A DNA stretch of 50,669 nt from positions 1 to 50,669 of IMG/VR virus record IMGVR_UViG_3300032011_000019. One strand, written 5' to 3'. This DNA comes from a virus. Shown in pieces: positions 20,319 to 24,585 of the stretch (position 1 is the stretch's first letter; each line of letters begins with the position of its first letter). The notes under the pieces were generated by a model that worked only from the letters and a program-made list of their open reading frames with translations, did no database searches and was not told the DNA's origin. A program made the position numbers and the translations under genes.

Positions 20319-21022
20319 CCCCTAGTGGACAGTTTCTCTTCTGACACAAGGTATGCCAAGGCTTCTTGCTTGTGGGTTGGTTCATGGAAGGTCATATAGT
20401 CGAAGTCTTTGTCTCCACAGGTGTGTGTATGAACTGTCACGTCACCCTCATATTCTATAGGTTTCTGCTTCCGTATTAATTGTTTAAAAGTGGGAGGATC
20501 CCAGTCTAGATGGGTACTTCTACCTAACCCAGATGGTCTACGATCAGTCCAGACATCAAAGTATAATGATATGTTTGTCTCTACGTTAGGTAGTTCCATG
20601 TATGAATATTCACCACGAAACAGAGTAAGCTTTGCTTCCTCTTGATACACCCACAAAACTTTGTTTGCTTTGATATCACCATATTTCATATCGTTAAGCA
20701 TGAGACCTGAGCATGAGTTATACAGGTCAACCACACCCACCCACTCAGGATGAATCTTCTCCTCTACACTCTCATCACTGTCCCAATGAGGACCAGTGTA
20801 TGTGTGACCGTCTGGTGGTATGTACACCCAGTACTCCATACCTAAGCATGGTTTGATAAAGAATCTCTTGTATAACTTCTGGAGATAGTCCTCCACTAGG
20901 TTACGTGGTTCATCATCATAACCTATCCAAAAATTCTCACGACCAATCTTCTTGAGTTGATCGCTCAAGTGGTAGTTGGTCTTGCCATCATGTATGTGTC
21001 TGTATATCTTATACCAGTTCAT
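20315..21022 (-). CDS. Hypothetical protein, possible 2OG oxygenase-like fold
   Basis: A 235-residue protein with YIPPDGHTYTGPHWDSDES in the middle, where HWD could be an HxD iron-binding pair, followed by strands LTLFRGEYSYMEL and NISLYFDVW. I do not find a convincing distal His and Arg, so activity is uncertain. It overlaps pyrE by 14 nt. Several oxygenases in this phage have similar length and GPH/D patterns. Confidence 0.5.
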   Translation of the reverse strand: MNWYKIYRHIHDGKTNYHLSDQLKKIGRENFWIGYDDEPRNLVEDYLQKLYKRFFIKPCLGMEYWVYIPPDGHTYTGPHWDSDESVEEKIHPEWVGVVDLYNSCSGLMLNDMKYGDIKANKVLWVYQEEAKLTLFRGEYSYMELPNVETNISLYFDVWTDRRPSGLGRSTHLDWDPPTFKQLIRKQKPIEYEGDVTVHTHTCGDKDFDYMTFHEPTHKQEALAYLVSEEKLSTRG

Positions 21023-21527
21023 TCAAAGTAAAGAGACTCACTAATTCTACATTGCTGTCCTTGAATAACTTGTCTGCTTCACCATCATCCTGACGGTCCA
21101 CAATACAAACCACTCTGTTGACTACGTAACCTGCTTCTCGCAGGATCTTTACTGCTTTGATAGCAGAGTTACCTGTTGTGATTACATCCTCTAGGAGAGT
21201 CACCACAGACCCTATAGGATGGGTTGGTCCCTCTACCATTGCCTGAGTACCATACCCCTTAGGATCTTTACGTACTAGCATAGCATCTAGTCTACCTGAT
21301 GTAATAGACACACCTGTTGCTAGTGGGTCACCACCTAGGGTAACACCTGCTACTGCTACAGCATCCTGATCCACTTCCTTGAGTAGTGCTGGTGCTATGA
21401 GTTTAATGCCCTCGTTGCTAAGAGAGATGGGCTTACAGTTAACATAATGCATACTGGTCTTACCTGAAGACAGTATGATGTCACCATACTTGTACCCTTT
21501 CTCCTTAATTAAATTTAATAGTGTCAT
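21009..21527 (-). CDS. pyrE: Orotate phosphoribosyltransferase
   Basis: A 172-residue PyrE that joins orotate to PRPP, a step of pyrimidine synthesis. The PRPP-binding motif is LLEDVITTGNSAIKAV, and the N-terminal GDIILSSGKTSMHYVNCK matches the orotate-binding region. Found in several cyanophages; adds to the nucleotide set (purM, purC, thyX, nrdAB). It overlaps the next gene by 4 nt. Confidence 0.93.
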   Translation of the reverse strand: MTLLNLIKEKGYKYGDIILSSGKTSMHYVNCKPISLSNEGIKLIAPALLKEVDQDAVAVAGVTLGGDPLATGVSITSGRLDAMLVRKDPKGYGTQAMVEGPTHPIGSVVTLLEDVITTGNSAIKAVKILREAGYVVNRVVCIVDRQDDGEADKLFKDSNVELVSLFTLNELV

Positions 21528-21991
21528 TTTTTTATGTCTATGAAGATAAACTCCATTGGTTCTTCTGAATAGTTATACGCTTCATGTATGTGATCTTGTA
21601 CATCCCATACAGAAAACTTACCTGACTCCCAACAGTTAACTTTCTTACCCTCCCATATCATATAACATTTCTCTGGGTCAACTACAAGAGGAATATGTAT
21701 CCTCCTATACTTGTAAGGATATACGTCAGGATCCCTGTGCTTAGGCAACTCTGTGTTTGGATGGAACAGAGCACCAGTAGCAAACAAAACCTCATCTCTA
21801 TCTAATATCTCTACGATCTTAGGGTCATCCACAAGGGAAGTACGCACCCCCTTAAACCCTCTGGTTCCTTTCAACCAGCACATATCTATAGGTTGGTTGG
21901 AATATCCTTCTGCTGTCGGTGCCTTACGATAAGGCAACTCAGTTGTCATACCCCATTCATATATGATTTGTAGTTCTTCGTCAGTCAACAT
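21524..21991 (-). CDS. Aspartyl/asparaginyl-hydroxylase-like 2OG oxygenase
   Basis: A 155-residue oxygenase with the Asp_Arg_Hydrox layout: H85-R-D87 in LPKHRDPD, the RRIHIPLV strand and the distal His in DHIHEAYN (134/136). It is a small, probably single-domain enzyme. Substrate unknown. It overlaps the GIY-YIG gene by 11 nt and pyrE by 4 nt. Confidence 0.75.
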   Translation of the reverse strand: MLTDEELQIIYEWGMTTELPYRKAPTAEGYSNQPIDMCWLKGTRGFKGVRTSLVDDPKIVEILDRDEVLFATGALFHPNTELPKHRDPDVYPYKYRRIHIPLVVDPEKCYMIWEGKKVNCWESGKFSVWDVQDHIHEAYNYSEEPMEFIFIDIKK

Positions 21992-22469
21992 CAGGTTTAA
22001 AATAATCTTTTTTCATATACCTGCCCAGTATATTACTGTTGTAATAGGCAGGAGTTCCATCTATATGTTCAGTGAGTACATTATTTAGAAAAAGTTGTCT
22101 TGTCTCTTCGTAGTTTACCTTTCCAAGGGTGGTGTGAAGTGAGATAATTTCTCTCTTGAAGTTGGATTTTCCAAGAGATTTAACATCGGTCTTAAGTTCT
22201 GCAGAACTTCCGTAGTAGTTCTTCCAGTCGCTCTCAGACGTAACCCTCCGTTTCCCTTTCCCACTTCTAGGCTTTCTACGCTGTGTAAAATACTTTCTTC
22301 CGATGTATTGCCTACCCGATTCGTTATTTGTAATACGGTAGACGTAACCGAAGAAATCGTTAATGTCATTAGAAGTAAAAGTTGTACCCTGATAGGTCCA
22401 GGGGTTCTCATAACTTCCTTCATCAGTTTGTTTAGTTGTTTCATTCTTGGTATCCTTCTTCATCATCAT
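21981..22469 (-). CDS. GIY-YIG nuclease-like protein
   Basis: About 162 residues. GYVYRITNNESGRQYIGRKYF is a GIY-YIG motif pair (GYVY and YIG) followed by the catalytic Arg, with DWKNYYGSS and NYEETRQLFLNN typical of T4 Seg-type and related phage endonucleases. Several Met codons near 22463-22514 could start it; I take the one after the Asp-rich overlap. Free-standing homing endonuclease or a domesticated nuclease are both possible. No intron is seen nearby. Confidence 0.7.
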   Translation of the reverse strand: MMMKKDTKNETTKQTDEGSYENPWTYQGTTFTSNDINDFFGYVYRITNNESGRQYIGRKYFTQRRKPRSGKGKRRVTSESDWKNYYGSSAELKTDVKSLGKSNFKREIISLHTTLGKVNYEETRQLFLNNVLTEHIDGTPAYYNSNILGRYMKKDYFKPDVD

Positions 22470-22578
22470 AGAACCCATCGTCACTACTGTTATTCCTGTC
22501 GGAATATACTTCAACTTTAAGTTCTGCTAGGACTTCTTCCAACTGTTCGAGTAGCTGCTTCAGTCTCCTTTTCTCCAT
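22441..22578 (-). CDS. 45-residue helical protein with acidic tail
   Basis: Starts MEKRRLKQLLEQLEEVLAEL, a Leu heptad helix, then KVEVYSDRNN and an acidic DDGFYDDEEGYQE tail. I recognise this helix-plus-acidic-tail pattern in cyanophages. It directly follows a terminator and overlaps the GIY-YIG gene start. Probably a small protein-protein interaction factor; function unknown. Confidence 0.6.
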   Translation of the reverse strand: MEKRRLKQLLEQLEEVLAELKVEVYSDRNNSSDDGFYDDEEGYQE

Positions 22579-22612
22579 AAAAATATCCCCGACTACTATA
22601 TGTAGCGGGGAT
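22579..22612 (-). terminator. Rho-independent terminator after the riboswitch-controlled peptide
   Basis: Stem ATCCCCG-CTAC/GTAG-CGGGGAT (one bulged base) followed by a T run on the minus strand. It closes the single-gene unit that starts at the promoter at 22914-22942. Confidence 0.75.
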
Positions 22613-22630
22613 GGAAATTAAGAGTTAGTT

Positions 22631-22780
22631 CTAGACTGCAGTCATGACACGCTTGGTGCCATCCTTAGTGACATGGAATTTTACACCTCTGTAAACTTCC
22701 ACACGTTCTATAGATTTAGGTGACTGGTCTGGACGATTCTCAGTATCATATCGGATACCTCGATAAGTAACTTGTGCCAT
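22631..22780 (-). CDS. DUF4278 small protein (downstream peptide)
   Basis: A 49-residue protein: MAQVTYRGIRYDTENRPDQS near the start and YRGVKFHVTK near the end, the YRG repeats of DUF4278. AGGAG sits at good spacing before the ATG. DUF4278-like peptides are typical of genes behind the glutamine-sensing downstream-peptide RNA in cyanobacteria and cyanophages, and two such aptamer-like elements are directly upstream here. A self-contained promoter-aptamers-gene-terminator unit. Function of the peptide unknown. Confidence 0.7.
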   Translation of the reverse strand: MAQVTYRGIRYDTENRPDQSPKSIERVEVYRGVKFHVTKDGTKRVMTAV

Positions 22781-22810
22781 TGGATTACTCCTAAAGTAGT
22801 TGGGTTTTTA

Positions 22811-22861
22811 ATCCGTTCCTTTAGTCAACTTATGCGTCCCCCACTAGAGGGAATGAACGAT
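22811..22861 (-). ncRNA. Glutamine-riboswitch-like aptamer B (downstream-peptide type)
   Basis: Transcribed strand: TCGTTC pairs with GAACGG to close the element; inside are a CCC/GGG hairpin, then GGACGCATAAG and CTAAAGGAACG. This matches the layout of glnA/downstream-peptide RNAs (CGTTCA, hairpin, GACG-AAG, AAGGAACG). The CTAAAG segment can also pair with CTTTAG next to the ribosome-binding site, giving a possible expression platform. Confidence 0.65.
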
Positions 22862-22907
22862 CCGTTCCGAGTTGGCTTACTTGCGACCCCTTATGGGGTT
22901 GAACGAT
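22860..22907 (-). ncRNA. Glutamine-riboswitch-like aptamer A (downstream-peptide type)
   Basis: Same layout as aptamer B: CGTTCA, a CCCC-ATAA-GGGG hairpin, TCGCAAGTAAG, then CTCGGAACG closing with the 5' CGTTC. It starts at the predicted transcription start and abuts aptamer B, so the two are in tandem, as known for glnA RNAs. It keeps more of the consensus internal loop (GCAAGTAAG) than B. Confidence 0.65.
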
Positions 22908-22913
22908 AAGGAT

Positions 22914-22942
22914 ATGCTAACACATCCATAGTATATAGTCAA
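22914..22942 (-). promoter_or_regulatory. Sigma-70-like promoter of the riboswitch-peptide unit
   Basis: TTGACT and TAGCAT with a 17-bp spacer on the minus strand. The predicted start (about 22907) coincides with the first base of aptamer A. Confidence 0.6.
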
Positions 22943-22973
22943 GCACTGCTGTATTAGTTGATACAAAACTTAA

Positions 22974-23016
22974 AAAACCCTACACGGAAAAAATTTCCCG
23001 AATTTTTTTTCGACTT
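22974..23016 (-). repeat. Intergenic hairpin element, copy 3
   Basis: Shares the A-run, TTCGGG, TTTTTTCC and GTAGGG core with copies 1 and 2, but lacks the final TTGAGCTA and late-promoter part. It lies directly 3' of tRNA-Thr in the transcript, so here it may act in tRNA 3' processing or termination. Confidence 0.5.
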
Positions 23017-23023
23017 TTTTTGA

Positions 23024-23095
23024 TGCCACAAGACGGATTTGAACCGCCGACCTTGGCTTTACAAAAGCCCTGCACTACCGCTGTGCTATTGTGGC
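23024..23095 (-). tRNA. tRNA-Thr(TGT)
   Basis: A 72-nt canonical cloverleaf: acceptor GCCACAA/TTGTGGC, D arm GCAC-AGCGGTA-GTGC, anticodon loop TTTGTAA (anticodon TGT), 5-nt variable loop, T arm GGCGG-TTCAAAT-CCGTC, discriminator A; CCA not encoded. Its first 10 nt are also the last codons and stop of the upstream oxygenase gene. It would help decode ACA codons, which suit AT-rich phage genes. Confidence 0.9.
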
Positions 23096-23664
23096 AACCA
23101 TTCTACCCAACCAGTACATATATATTTCTCTTGTGTCTGGCTGATCTCACCCACGTGCTTGTGTGTGATACCTGCTGGAAATATAACTGTCTTACCTTTC
23201 CTAGCACTGATTGTCATGTCATTGTTGACCATGATAGTACCACCATCAGGTACATCATTTAAGTATGTTATGTAGACTAACACACGTGACATCACCTCTG
23301 CTTCAGCATCGATGTGTGGGAAAAAGAATCCACCTCCAGGTTTATAGTACTGTACTTGGGGTAGAGTTCTAATACCTATGGGTGGTGGAAGTTCAAAGTG
23401 ATCCCAATAATCATTATAGCATACTGTGATCCAGTTCATATAATCTTGGAGACCCCAGACATCATCACCTATGACACCCTGCCATACATCTTCAAAGGAT
23501 ACCTCCATGCTATCCTTTCTCTCTGGTTTTATGTCTGACTTATCACCACCTCCTACCTTACCTGGTTCAGTTAACCCTTCTCCATGGGCAACCTTAAACA
23601 TATCAATGATCTTGTCACATCCATCATGATCATACCAGTAGTCTCTAATATACCTATCCGTCAT
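23086..23664 (-). CDS. Prolyl-4-hydroxylase-like Fe(II)/2OG oxygenase
   Basis: A 192-residue enzyme with a complete P4H signature: YYKPGGGFFFPHID with H117-x-D119, LNDVPDGGTI, the distal His in GITHKHVG (168/170) and Lys180 in EKYICTGW for 2-oxoglutarate. It resembles the enzyme at 5.7-6.3 kb (shared PAGxTHxHxG and S-T-EKYI-TGW), so the two are probably paralogues. The stop codon is inside the tRNA-Thr acceptor stem. Substrate unknown. Confidence 0.85.
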   Translation of the reverse strand: MTDRYIRDYWYDHDGCDKIIDMFKVAHGEGLTEPGKVGGGDKSDIKPERKDSMEVSFEDVWQGVIGDDVWGLQDYMNWITVCYNDYWDHFELPPPIGIRTLPQVQYYKPGGGFFFPHIDAEAEVMSRVLVYITYLNDVPDGGTIMVNNDMTISARKGKTVIFPAGITHKHVGEISQTQEKYICTGWVEWLPQ

Positions 23665-23896
23665 GCTCTGCTAAGTATTCTTTCTCCTTAGAGTAGAATT
23701 CTGACAGACTAGATGAACAATCAGGTGGTTCAGGTGTCTTATAACCATTTCTTTTCTTCCATTCATTATACATTGCTCCCATCTGCCACGATTGAGCAAG
23801 ACTCTTAGGTCCATTCCTAAGTAACTCTTCTTGTTTACCAGTGTAATAAGGAATAGATTCCTCTCTCCAATTACTCTCGTCCCATTCGGTAATCAT
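23654..23896 (-). CDS. Hypothetical 80-residue protein
   Basis: A polar protein (starts MITEWDESNWREESIPYYTG; contains AQSWQMGAMYNEWKKRNG) with no membrane segment and one Cys. It overlaps purC by 4 nt and the oxygenase by 11 nt. I recall similar proteins in cyanophages but no function. Confidence 0.6.
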   Translation of the reverse strand: MITEWDESNWREESIPYYTGKQEELLRNGPKSLAQSWQMGAMYNEWKKRNGYKTPEPPDCSSSLSEFYSKEKEYLAEHDG

Positions 23897-24585
23897 TCTA
23901 GTATCTCCTTAAGGTTCGTAAGTATATATCTATAAGCATCTACTATATTACCTTCGTCTTTTCTGAAGAGATCTTTATCGAAACTCTTACCATCCTTCCA
24001 CAGTCTAAAGTTATCAGGTGACAGTTCATCAGCAAGGAACAGATGACCTTTATCATCCACACCATACTCTAACTTATAATCTACTACTGTCAGTCCCATC
24101 TGTCCAAATATTTTCTGGAAGTGGAAGTTCAATTCAGTTGCTCTACGTCTGAATGTCTTAGGATCATACCCCATCAGACTGACTCTATCATCAGTTAACA
24201 AGGGATCATTCTTCTCATCACACTTGTAGTTGAACTCAACTAGAGGTGGATTAAACCTTGTACCTTCTTCTATAGGTGAGTCCCTACAAATACCACCTGT
24301 TGCTATGTTCCTAAGGATAACTTCGACTGGTATAATCTTAAGCTTCTTAACACACAATGCTCTGTGCGTAGGCATACTTAGGTAGTGTGTAGCACATACA
24401 TGTTCTCTGTCTAGGTACTCAAAGAATAGTTTAGAGATCTCACAACAGATAGCACCCTTATCCTCAGGGAAGTCTACCTTCCTACCATTACCTGCTGTTA
24501 CTTTGTCTTCAAACTGTATCAAAAGTTGATCGGGTTTGTCAGTACCAAAAAGTGTCTTGACCTTACCCTCCATAATATATGTCAT
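23893..24585 (-). CDS. purC: SAICAR synthetase
   Basis: A 230-residue phosphoribosylaminoimidazole-succinocarboxamide synthase, adding aspartate to CAIR in purine synthesis. The N-terminal GKVKTLF, the PVEVILRNIATGG block and LADELSPDNFRLW (metal and substrate binding) are diagnostic. Length is normal. The ATG at 24573 (MEGKVK) is an alternative start. It overlaps the NdhS-like gene by 4 nt. Confidence 0.95.
   Translation of the reverse strand: MTYIMEGKVKTLFGTDKPDQLLIQFEDKVTAGNGRKVDFPEDKGAICCEISKLFFEYLDREHVCATHYLSMPTHRALCVKKLKIIPVEVILRNIATGGICRDSPIEEGTRFNPPLVEFNYKCDEKNDPLLTDDRVSLMGYDPKTFRRRATELNFHFQKIFGQMGLTVVDYKLEYGVDDKGHLFLADELSPDNFRLWKDGKSFDKDLFRKDEGNIVDAYRYILTNLKEILE

Follow-up and report, generated by a model that had tools for sequence, protein, structure and literature searches.

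Riboswitches are usually drawn with the sensor upstream and the gene downstream. The glnA RNAs (glutamine-I, RF01739) and the Downstream-peptide RNAs (glutamine-II, RF01704) were described by Weinberg in 2010, with tandem glnA copies already noted (PMC2864571). Glutamine-I RNAs combine a P1 helix (CGUUC/GAACG), a P2 hairpin and a GACGCA...AAG core and lie before DUF4278 genes, and glutamine-II RNAs lie before DUF4278-type peptides in marine picocyanobacteria (PMC6316151, PMC6698751). In cyanobacteria, glutamine riboswitches act as ON switches, probably at the level of translation (PMC6316151, PMC6698751). They have been linked to DUF4278, which makes up the N-terminal part of IF17, an inactivating factor of glutamine synthetase, and gifB is under the control of a glutamine riboswitch (PMC6316151). 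Glutamine riboswitches have also been listed in T4-like cyanophages (PMC9602691, PMC9964418) and in a methylophage (PMC9004378). In phage S-CREM1, an annotated 99-nt glnA feature covers two tandem aptamers that precede a 48-aa ORF, and methylophage Melnitz carries a glnA-type element that, unlike the elements studied here, sits in the tmRNA gene; the accessible parts of the S-CREM1 and Melnitz reports make no mention of genes inside the aptamer. In the B12 aptamer of the Mycobacterium tuberculosis metE leader, the translated ORF uMetE2 (+123 to +170) lies inside an aptamer extension, shows limited conservation, and lowers MetE when translated (PMC11260477).

Cyanophage glutamine riboswitches and their link to DUF4278 are therefore already known. 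What is new, in relatives of the locus analyzed here, is an aptamer that encloses a protein gene, the function of such aptamers being predicted; we found no report of an ORF or gene inside a glutamine aptamer among open-licence PMC articles. A conserved, widespread sensor enclosing a selected protein gene would show that an aptamer and a coding sequence can be folded into one object. Nested arrays of this kind would give a regulatory context to the hypothetical families T4-GC 429 and 430 of T4-like cyanophages, and a practical way into the question of how such phages sense the nitrogen status of their hosts.

The stretch of DNA analyzed (the window) is a 50,669-base IMG/VR virus fragment, in which the tandem-aptamer/DUF4278 unit lies on the minus strand (Table 1), the strand having been left unstated in the preliminary description. 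The best explanation is that a T4-like cyanophage, infecting marine cyanobacteria, has a small transcription unit here. Upstream, a tRNA-Thr(UGU) gene (23096-23022) ends approximately 80 nt before the −35 box.

Table 1. Features of the tandem-aptamer unit of the window; E values of the aptamer matches are those of a cmscan search of positions 22500-23400
Feature	Position	Strand	Evidence
Sigma-70-type promoter: −35 TTGACT (22942-22937), 17-nt spacer, −10 TAGCAT (22919-22914)	22914..22942	−	Pattern scan
Predicted transcription start	~22907	−	From promoter position
Glutamine aptamer A, intact, no ORF in P2 loop	22863..22907	−	RF01739 30.7 bits, E 1.7e-4
Predicted inter-aptamer hairpin GAACG-GAU-CGUUC (P1 3' strand of A and P1 5' strand of B)	22855..22867	−	Fold prediction, P 0.95
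Glutamine aptamer B, intact, no ORF in P2 loop	22810..22861	−	RF01739 29.5 bits, E 3.7e-4; RF01704 26.5 bits, E 2.8e-4, at 22862-22807
CUAAAG in the core of aptamer B, predicted to pair with CUUUAG ahead of the start codon	22819..22824	−	Fold and complementarity count
CUUUAGGAG: putative sequestering strand CUUUAG (22796-22791) overlapping Shine-Dalgarno AGGAG (22792-22788)	22788..22796	−	Sequence; fold
DUF4278 peptide ORF, 49 aa	22631..22780	−	PF14105 E 5.9e-5, 23.8 bits; phrog_5049 E 2.8e-11
Terminator-like hairpin then AUUUUUA, −17.1 kcal/mol	22585..22612	−	Absent from pattern-scan output

The two RF01739 matches adjoin each other, with 3 nt between the P1 strands of A and B, and gave E values of 2.2e-6 (A) and 5.0e-6 (B) when RF01739 alone was run against the whole record. 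Both copies align to positions 1 to 53 of the model with P1, P2 and P3 pairing and without flagged non-standard pairs, a few model positions being deleted near P3 and the 3' end. They have the P1 strands, P2 hairpin, core and DUF4278 context of glutamine-I but score 4 to 6 bits below the Rfam gathering score of RF01739 (35 bits), and aptamer A lacks the GAAG before GGAACG. Likewise, B falls short of the RF01704 gathering score (33 bits), A has no listed RF01704 match, and a scan of the window at gathering level reported tRNA only and no glutamine aptamer. Several relatives do reach the RF01739 gathering score, namely, L071 (40.2 bits), L055 (39.4), L025 (39.1), L004 (37.7), L031 (37.0), L026 (36.9), L072 (36.0) and L096 (35.4), L071 also reaching that of RF01704 (35.9 bits). 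As judged by these scores, the window-type pair is of a mixed glutamine-I/glutamine-II type, because in locus L014 copy A passes the glutamine-II cut-off (36.1 bits) and copy B the glutamine-I cut-off (35.4 bits). P2 covaries in intact relatives, with a mean of 5.24 contiguous pairs among 38 distinct P2s in the A slot (1.88 for shuffled partners) and 5.53 among 17 distinct P2s in the B slot (3.37 for shuffled partners); none of 3,000 shuffles reached the observed value in either slot.

The window promoter is by itself a weak consensus match, six such pairs having been found for 3.2 expected. A promoter-like pair ending 4 to 12 nt before aptamer A is, however, present in 43 of 55 distinct upstream regions, and the relatives thus share a start predicted to lie at the first bases of A. 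Since two matches adjoin, the promoter distance is conserved and P2 covaries, a chance covariance-model match was rejected, and the window element is confirmed, on the strength of its sequence, as a real tandem glutamine-riboswitch-like leader. An inverted repeat overlapping the −10 box was also observed, with arms of at least 6 nt in 37 of the 55 distinct upstream regions (e.g., L003, L007 and L022) versus 10% of shuffled ones; the window has an imperfect version of it (22927-22910). In 14 of the 55 (0.7 expected), the repeat fits GTAN8TAC, which we take to be the NtcA consensus; NtcA repression on top of glutamine sensing would mirror the host gif genes.

The 49-aa ORF of the window scores 1.5 bits below the Pfam gathering cut-off of DUF4278 (25.3 bits), which is passed by the peptides of P-HM2 (28.8 bits) and P-TIM68 (26.0 bits). 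The phage peptide corresponds to the DUF4278 part of IF17 only, a part called disposable for IF17 function (PMC6316151). The preliminary description, which had proposed tandem glutamine-aptamer-like RNAs with transcription starting at the first base of A, followed by a DUF4278 peptide and a terminator, was largely right on the window element, and the glutamine binding, the cooperative sensing and the nitrogen role of the peptide that it also proposed are kept as hypotheses. All of the shared motifs that it listed can be located (CGTTCA, the CCC/GGG hairpin, GTCGCA/GACGCA and GGAACG), the adjoining RF01739 matches and the relatives above the cut-off bear out the tandem aptamers, the predicted start agrees, the DUF4278 assignment stands with a Pfam score below the cut-off and a phrog_5049 match, and the hairpin followed by AUUUUUA fits the terminator. 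The absence of any covariance-model match, which it named as counting against it, holds at the curated cut-off only; below that cut-off lie the RF01739 matches and the RF01704 match of B. It likened the pair to both glnA and Downstream-peptide RNAs; glnA gives the window copies their best scores, and the mixed type is read from L014.

Relatives were collected by scanning viral contigs with the DUF4278 peptide; the best 80 of 386 relatives plus the window made up 81 loci, 79 of which were readable at both aptamers (L008 and L029, interrupted by contig ends, were left out). A second scan used the A-type nested protein as the query (best 80 of 552 relatives). The two sets overlap, some loci being on the same contigs, and their counts were not summed. 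In the first set, tandem aptamers were present in all 79 readable arrays, and GGAACG of A was separated from CGTTC of B by a linker of 3 nt in 53, 4 nt in 26 and 5 nt in 1 of 80 measurable loci. At least one aptamer was split by an ORF of 49 to 75 codons in the P2 hairpin loop in 59 of these 79 arrays, a proportion that is not a prevalence, since loci were chosen by similarity to the DUF4278 or A-type protein. Aptamer B was split in 38 arrays, aptamer A in 9 and both in 12, and an ORF was present in 71 of 71 split aptamers; in the remaining 20 arrays, including the window, both aptamers were short. The window, with short P2 loops and no nested ORF, thus represents the empty form, and many of its relatives depart from described glutamine-I RNAs by a P2 interrupted by a protein gene. 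In the second set, the 5' strand of the aptamer was found just before the ATG in 79 of 79 readable A-type loci and its 3' half in 80 of 80, and 78 of 80 continued into a complete aptamer B, the contig ending first in the other 2.

Among 17 loci from annotated collections, a set picked partly by nested-protein matches that does not measure prevalence, nested ORFs were found in both aptamers of P-RSM4, P-HM2, P-SSM4, Syn9, S-TIM5, S-CAM1 and AG-345-L05, in aptamer B only of P-SSM7, P-SSM2, P-RSM6, S-P4, P-RSM1, P-TIM40 and S-SZBM1, and in neither aptamer of S-PM2, S-CREM1 and P-TIM68. In the named phages, the array often sits between nrdB and talC. Host genomes contained RF01739 matches in 58 of 151 cases, with no two listed matches adjoining, under stricter filters and with RF01739 as the only family searched. 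manA RNAs flank the array in P-SSM4 (L088) and P-TIM40 (L097), and in L071 (2374-2982) a manA RNA and, beyond it, a further glutamine aptamer come after the DUF4278 unit. The phage array is also present in L181 (a metagenome-assembled genome called Dehalococcoidia) and L180 (a 189-kb contig of a Prochlorococcus single-amplified genome), both apparently phage contigs that came to be assigned to bacterial genomes through binning or co-amplification.

We then considered the split aptamer as an RNA. The P2 strands that flank a nested ORF still pair and covary: among 64 distinct copies, a strand formed 5.97 contiguous base pairs with its own partner versus 4.11 with shuffled partners, and none of 5,000 shuffles reached the observed value. 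This shuffling ignores relatedness, for which representative sets correct only in part; the result was again 0 of 5,000 when the copies were thinned to 52 (<80% protein identity) or 35 (<65%) representatives and when shuffling was confined within slots. Predicted P2 energies across the ORF were −7.4 (A) and −8.2 (B) kcal/mol versus −4.9 and −4.8 kcal/mol for shuffled partners. Some A copies have only 3 contiguous P2 pairs. Among split copies, 90 of 103 (A) and 31 of 64 (B) share an identical 3' half with an intact aptamer. This 3' half is read in three frames, as GGA-CGC-AAG-TAA in A, as GAC-GCA in most B copies and in the third frame in L010, L011 and L013. All 69 distinct A genes of the second scan end in an identical CGC AAG TAA, although synonymous codons for conserved residues vary upstream. 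Applied to 11 loci with at least one split aptamer, Rfam models reported the intact copies only and left the split ones unreported; Rfam-style models thus miss split aptamers. Fold prediction paired the nested AUG to the 3' strand of P2 with a probability above 0.5 in 70 of 73 A copies and 38 of 49 B copies, values only modestly above those of non-cognate controls (0.86 versus 0.78 for A and 0.69 versus 0.61 for B). The AUG-pairing, core/upstream and representative-set analyses cover copies with a recognized GACGCA/GACGAA core.

It is probable, in our assessment, that the tandem glutamine aptamers control DUF4278 and that the nested-gene aptamers give reciprocal control in the relatives. The tandem layout, the nesting, the selection on the nested proteins described below and the P2 covariation are read directly from sequence, and we infer glutamine binding, the ON sign, Shine-Dalgarno release and reciprocity. 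A host-type promoter would start the RNA at aptamer A, and the two aptamers would then control translation of DUF4278, with a terminator after it. Without glutamine, the P1 3' strand of A would pair with the P1 5' strand of B, so that both P1 helices open, and CUAAAG of B would pair with CUUUAG beside the Shine-Dalgarno, turning the DUF4278 peptide off; with glutamine, both P1 helices would form and the peptide would be turned on, in keeping with the ON sign of cyanobacterial glutamine riboswitches. In relatives, P2 would close across the nested gene. Since it would then cover or abut the nested start codon, binding of glutamine to the RNA should shut off the nested gene as DUF4278 opens, and a ribosome on the nested gene would keep the aptamer open, unfolding the sensor. 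We advance only tentatively the most specific form of this reading, in which the phage glutamine aptamer would be a gene cradle, with a gene in the P2 loop, its start in the closing stem and its stop in the ligand-binding core, and would act as a reciprocal switch: glutamine would shut one or two nested genes and open DUF4278, and ribosomes on the nested genes would hold the sensor open.

In ligand-free folds of 16 distinct ORF-free leaders, the inter-aptamer hairpin formed with a probability of at least 0.85 in 12, including the window, and P1 of B was essentially absent from all 16. The window fold contained the CUAAAG-CUUUAG pairing, with unpaired probabilities of 0.03 to 0.30 for the Shine-Dalgarno, and complementarity of this kind, of at least 6 bp, was found in 37 of 46 distinct loci versus 8% in shuffles. 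We infer Shine-Dalgarno sequestration with the backing of this complementarity count. When both P1 helices were forced in these leaders, the Shine-Dalgarno was not consistently opened (mean unpaired probability of 0.43 free versus 0.38 forced; higher in 11 of 16), and general release by the ligand was not retained as a consistent effect in folding. Also weighing against the preferred reading are the scores of the window aptamers and of its DUF4278 peptide below the curated cut-offs, the modest excess of AUG pairing over the controls, the A copies with few P2 pairs and the empty P2 loops of the window itself.

There is a substantial, if less than even, chance that the P2 loop is instead a tolerated docking site, the nested genes being expressed independently and the riboswitch controlling DUF4278 only. 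In the crystal construct of the glutamine-II riboswitch, exchange of the hairpin loop left the fold intact (PMC6698751), and ORF-free and ORF-bearing versions coexist with near-identical flanks. Loci L018 and L023 are 96% identical over the upstream 500 nt and 100% identical over the leader and downstream 500 nt, and aptamer A is 228 nt long with an ORF in one and 49 nt long without an ORF in the other. This difference, together with an A-type protein located in slot B, in a different frame, in L059, suggests that genes move in and out of P2 loops and between them. The placement of the ORFs speaks against mere tolerance. The nested start codon is ATG in 168 and TTG in 2 of 170 tabulated copies and, with one exception among them, lies 9 to 15 nt from where CGTTC begins, within the P2 stem or next to it; the stop is usually inside the aptamer core (119 of 130 distinct nested proteins counted). 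The absence of a normally spaced Shine-Dalgarno upstream of the nested ATGs likewise speaks against independent expression, and it counts against the preferred reading as well; a nested gene in slot A would have a leader of only approximately 13 nt. Finally, both nested families occur only in the array: in 16 cyanophage genome records, phrog_504 gave a single match in each of 13 and phrog_6471 in each of 6, every one of these 19 matches lying in the array (positions compared by eye). These families, together with phrog_13397, are all of unknown function and provided the best matches of seven nested proteins, phrog_6471 for two A-type proteins and phrog_504 or phrog_13397 for five B-type proteins.

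Less likely, and on balance improbable, is a role of the nested ORF as a regulatory upstream ORF, of which the translation and not the product would set DUF4278, via an open aptamer or termination-reinitiation. uMetE2 provides a precedent in that its translation within an aptamer lowers downstream expression (PMC11260477), and the stop of the B-slot ORF is usually approximately 40 nt before the DUF4278 start. uMetE2 is 48 nt long with limited conservation, whereas the phage nested ORFs form protein families of 49 to 75 codons found in many phages and in two aptamer slots. Against a purely regulatory role, their substitution patterns indicate that they are under purifying selection, with a median dN/dS of 0.16 for A (74 pairs; dN<dS in 74 of 74) and 0.23 for B (53 pairs; dN<dS in 52 of 53), and of 0.12 for the 69 distinct A genes of the second scan (best 80 of 552 relatives; dN<dS in 1,581 of 1,581 pairs). 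Exactly two cysteines, with first-to-last spacings of 31 to 43 residues, are present in 131 of 132 distinct nested proteins (three in the other), and the first ten residues are hydrophobic and devoid of Lys and Arg in all 132. The A-type protein was found in 2 of 300 host genomes, once on a phage-like contig with the array and once as two free-standing copies without it. Together, the selection, the conserved cysteines and the free-standing homologues argue for a nested product that works. The two free-standing genes (L213 and L214, host genome G187) lie approximately 43 kb apart, in partly identical surroundings and without an aptamer.

The B-type protein was found in 0 of 300 host genomes, in a search run without a positive control. 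Where annotated, the nested ORFs are hypothetical proteins, including T4-GC 429 (A) and 430 or 541 (B); those of P-SSM2 and of aptamer B of S-CAM1 carry no annotation. AlphaFold models of the nested proteins are two-helix hairpins (mean pLDDT of 80.9 and 79.3). No Pfam family was found above the cut-off, and neither the A-type model against the PDB nor the B-type model against BFVD gave a significant structural match.

Drift of the two window aptamers to a different ligand, or their decay, is quite improbable: both score below gathering, but they retain the core letters, the P2 pairing and the distance to the promoter, and relatives score above the cut-off. Control by transcription termination rather than translation is more improbable still, since the terminator-like hairpin within the unit lies 3' of the ORF, no transcription terminator was found between aptamer B and the DUF4278 start codon, and the one terminator-like site that the pattern scan gave close to the aptamers (22927-22910) is upstream of A, where it overlaps the promoter.

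Directly after the terminator of the DUF4278 unit, a 45-aa ORF without a Pfam match is located on the minus strand (22441-22578). The minus-strand neighbors (21009-24585) are phosphoribosyltransferase-like, Asp/Asn hydroxylase-like, SegE GIY-YIG endonuclease, 2OG-Fe(II) oxygenase and SAICAR synthetase ORFs.
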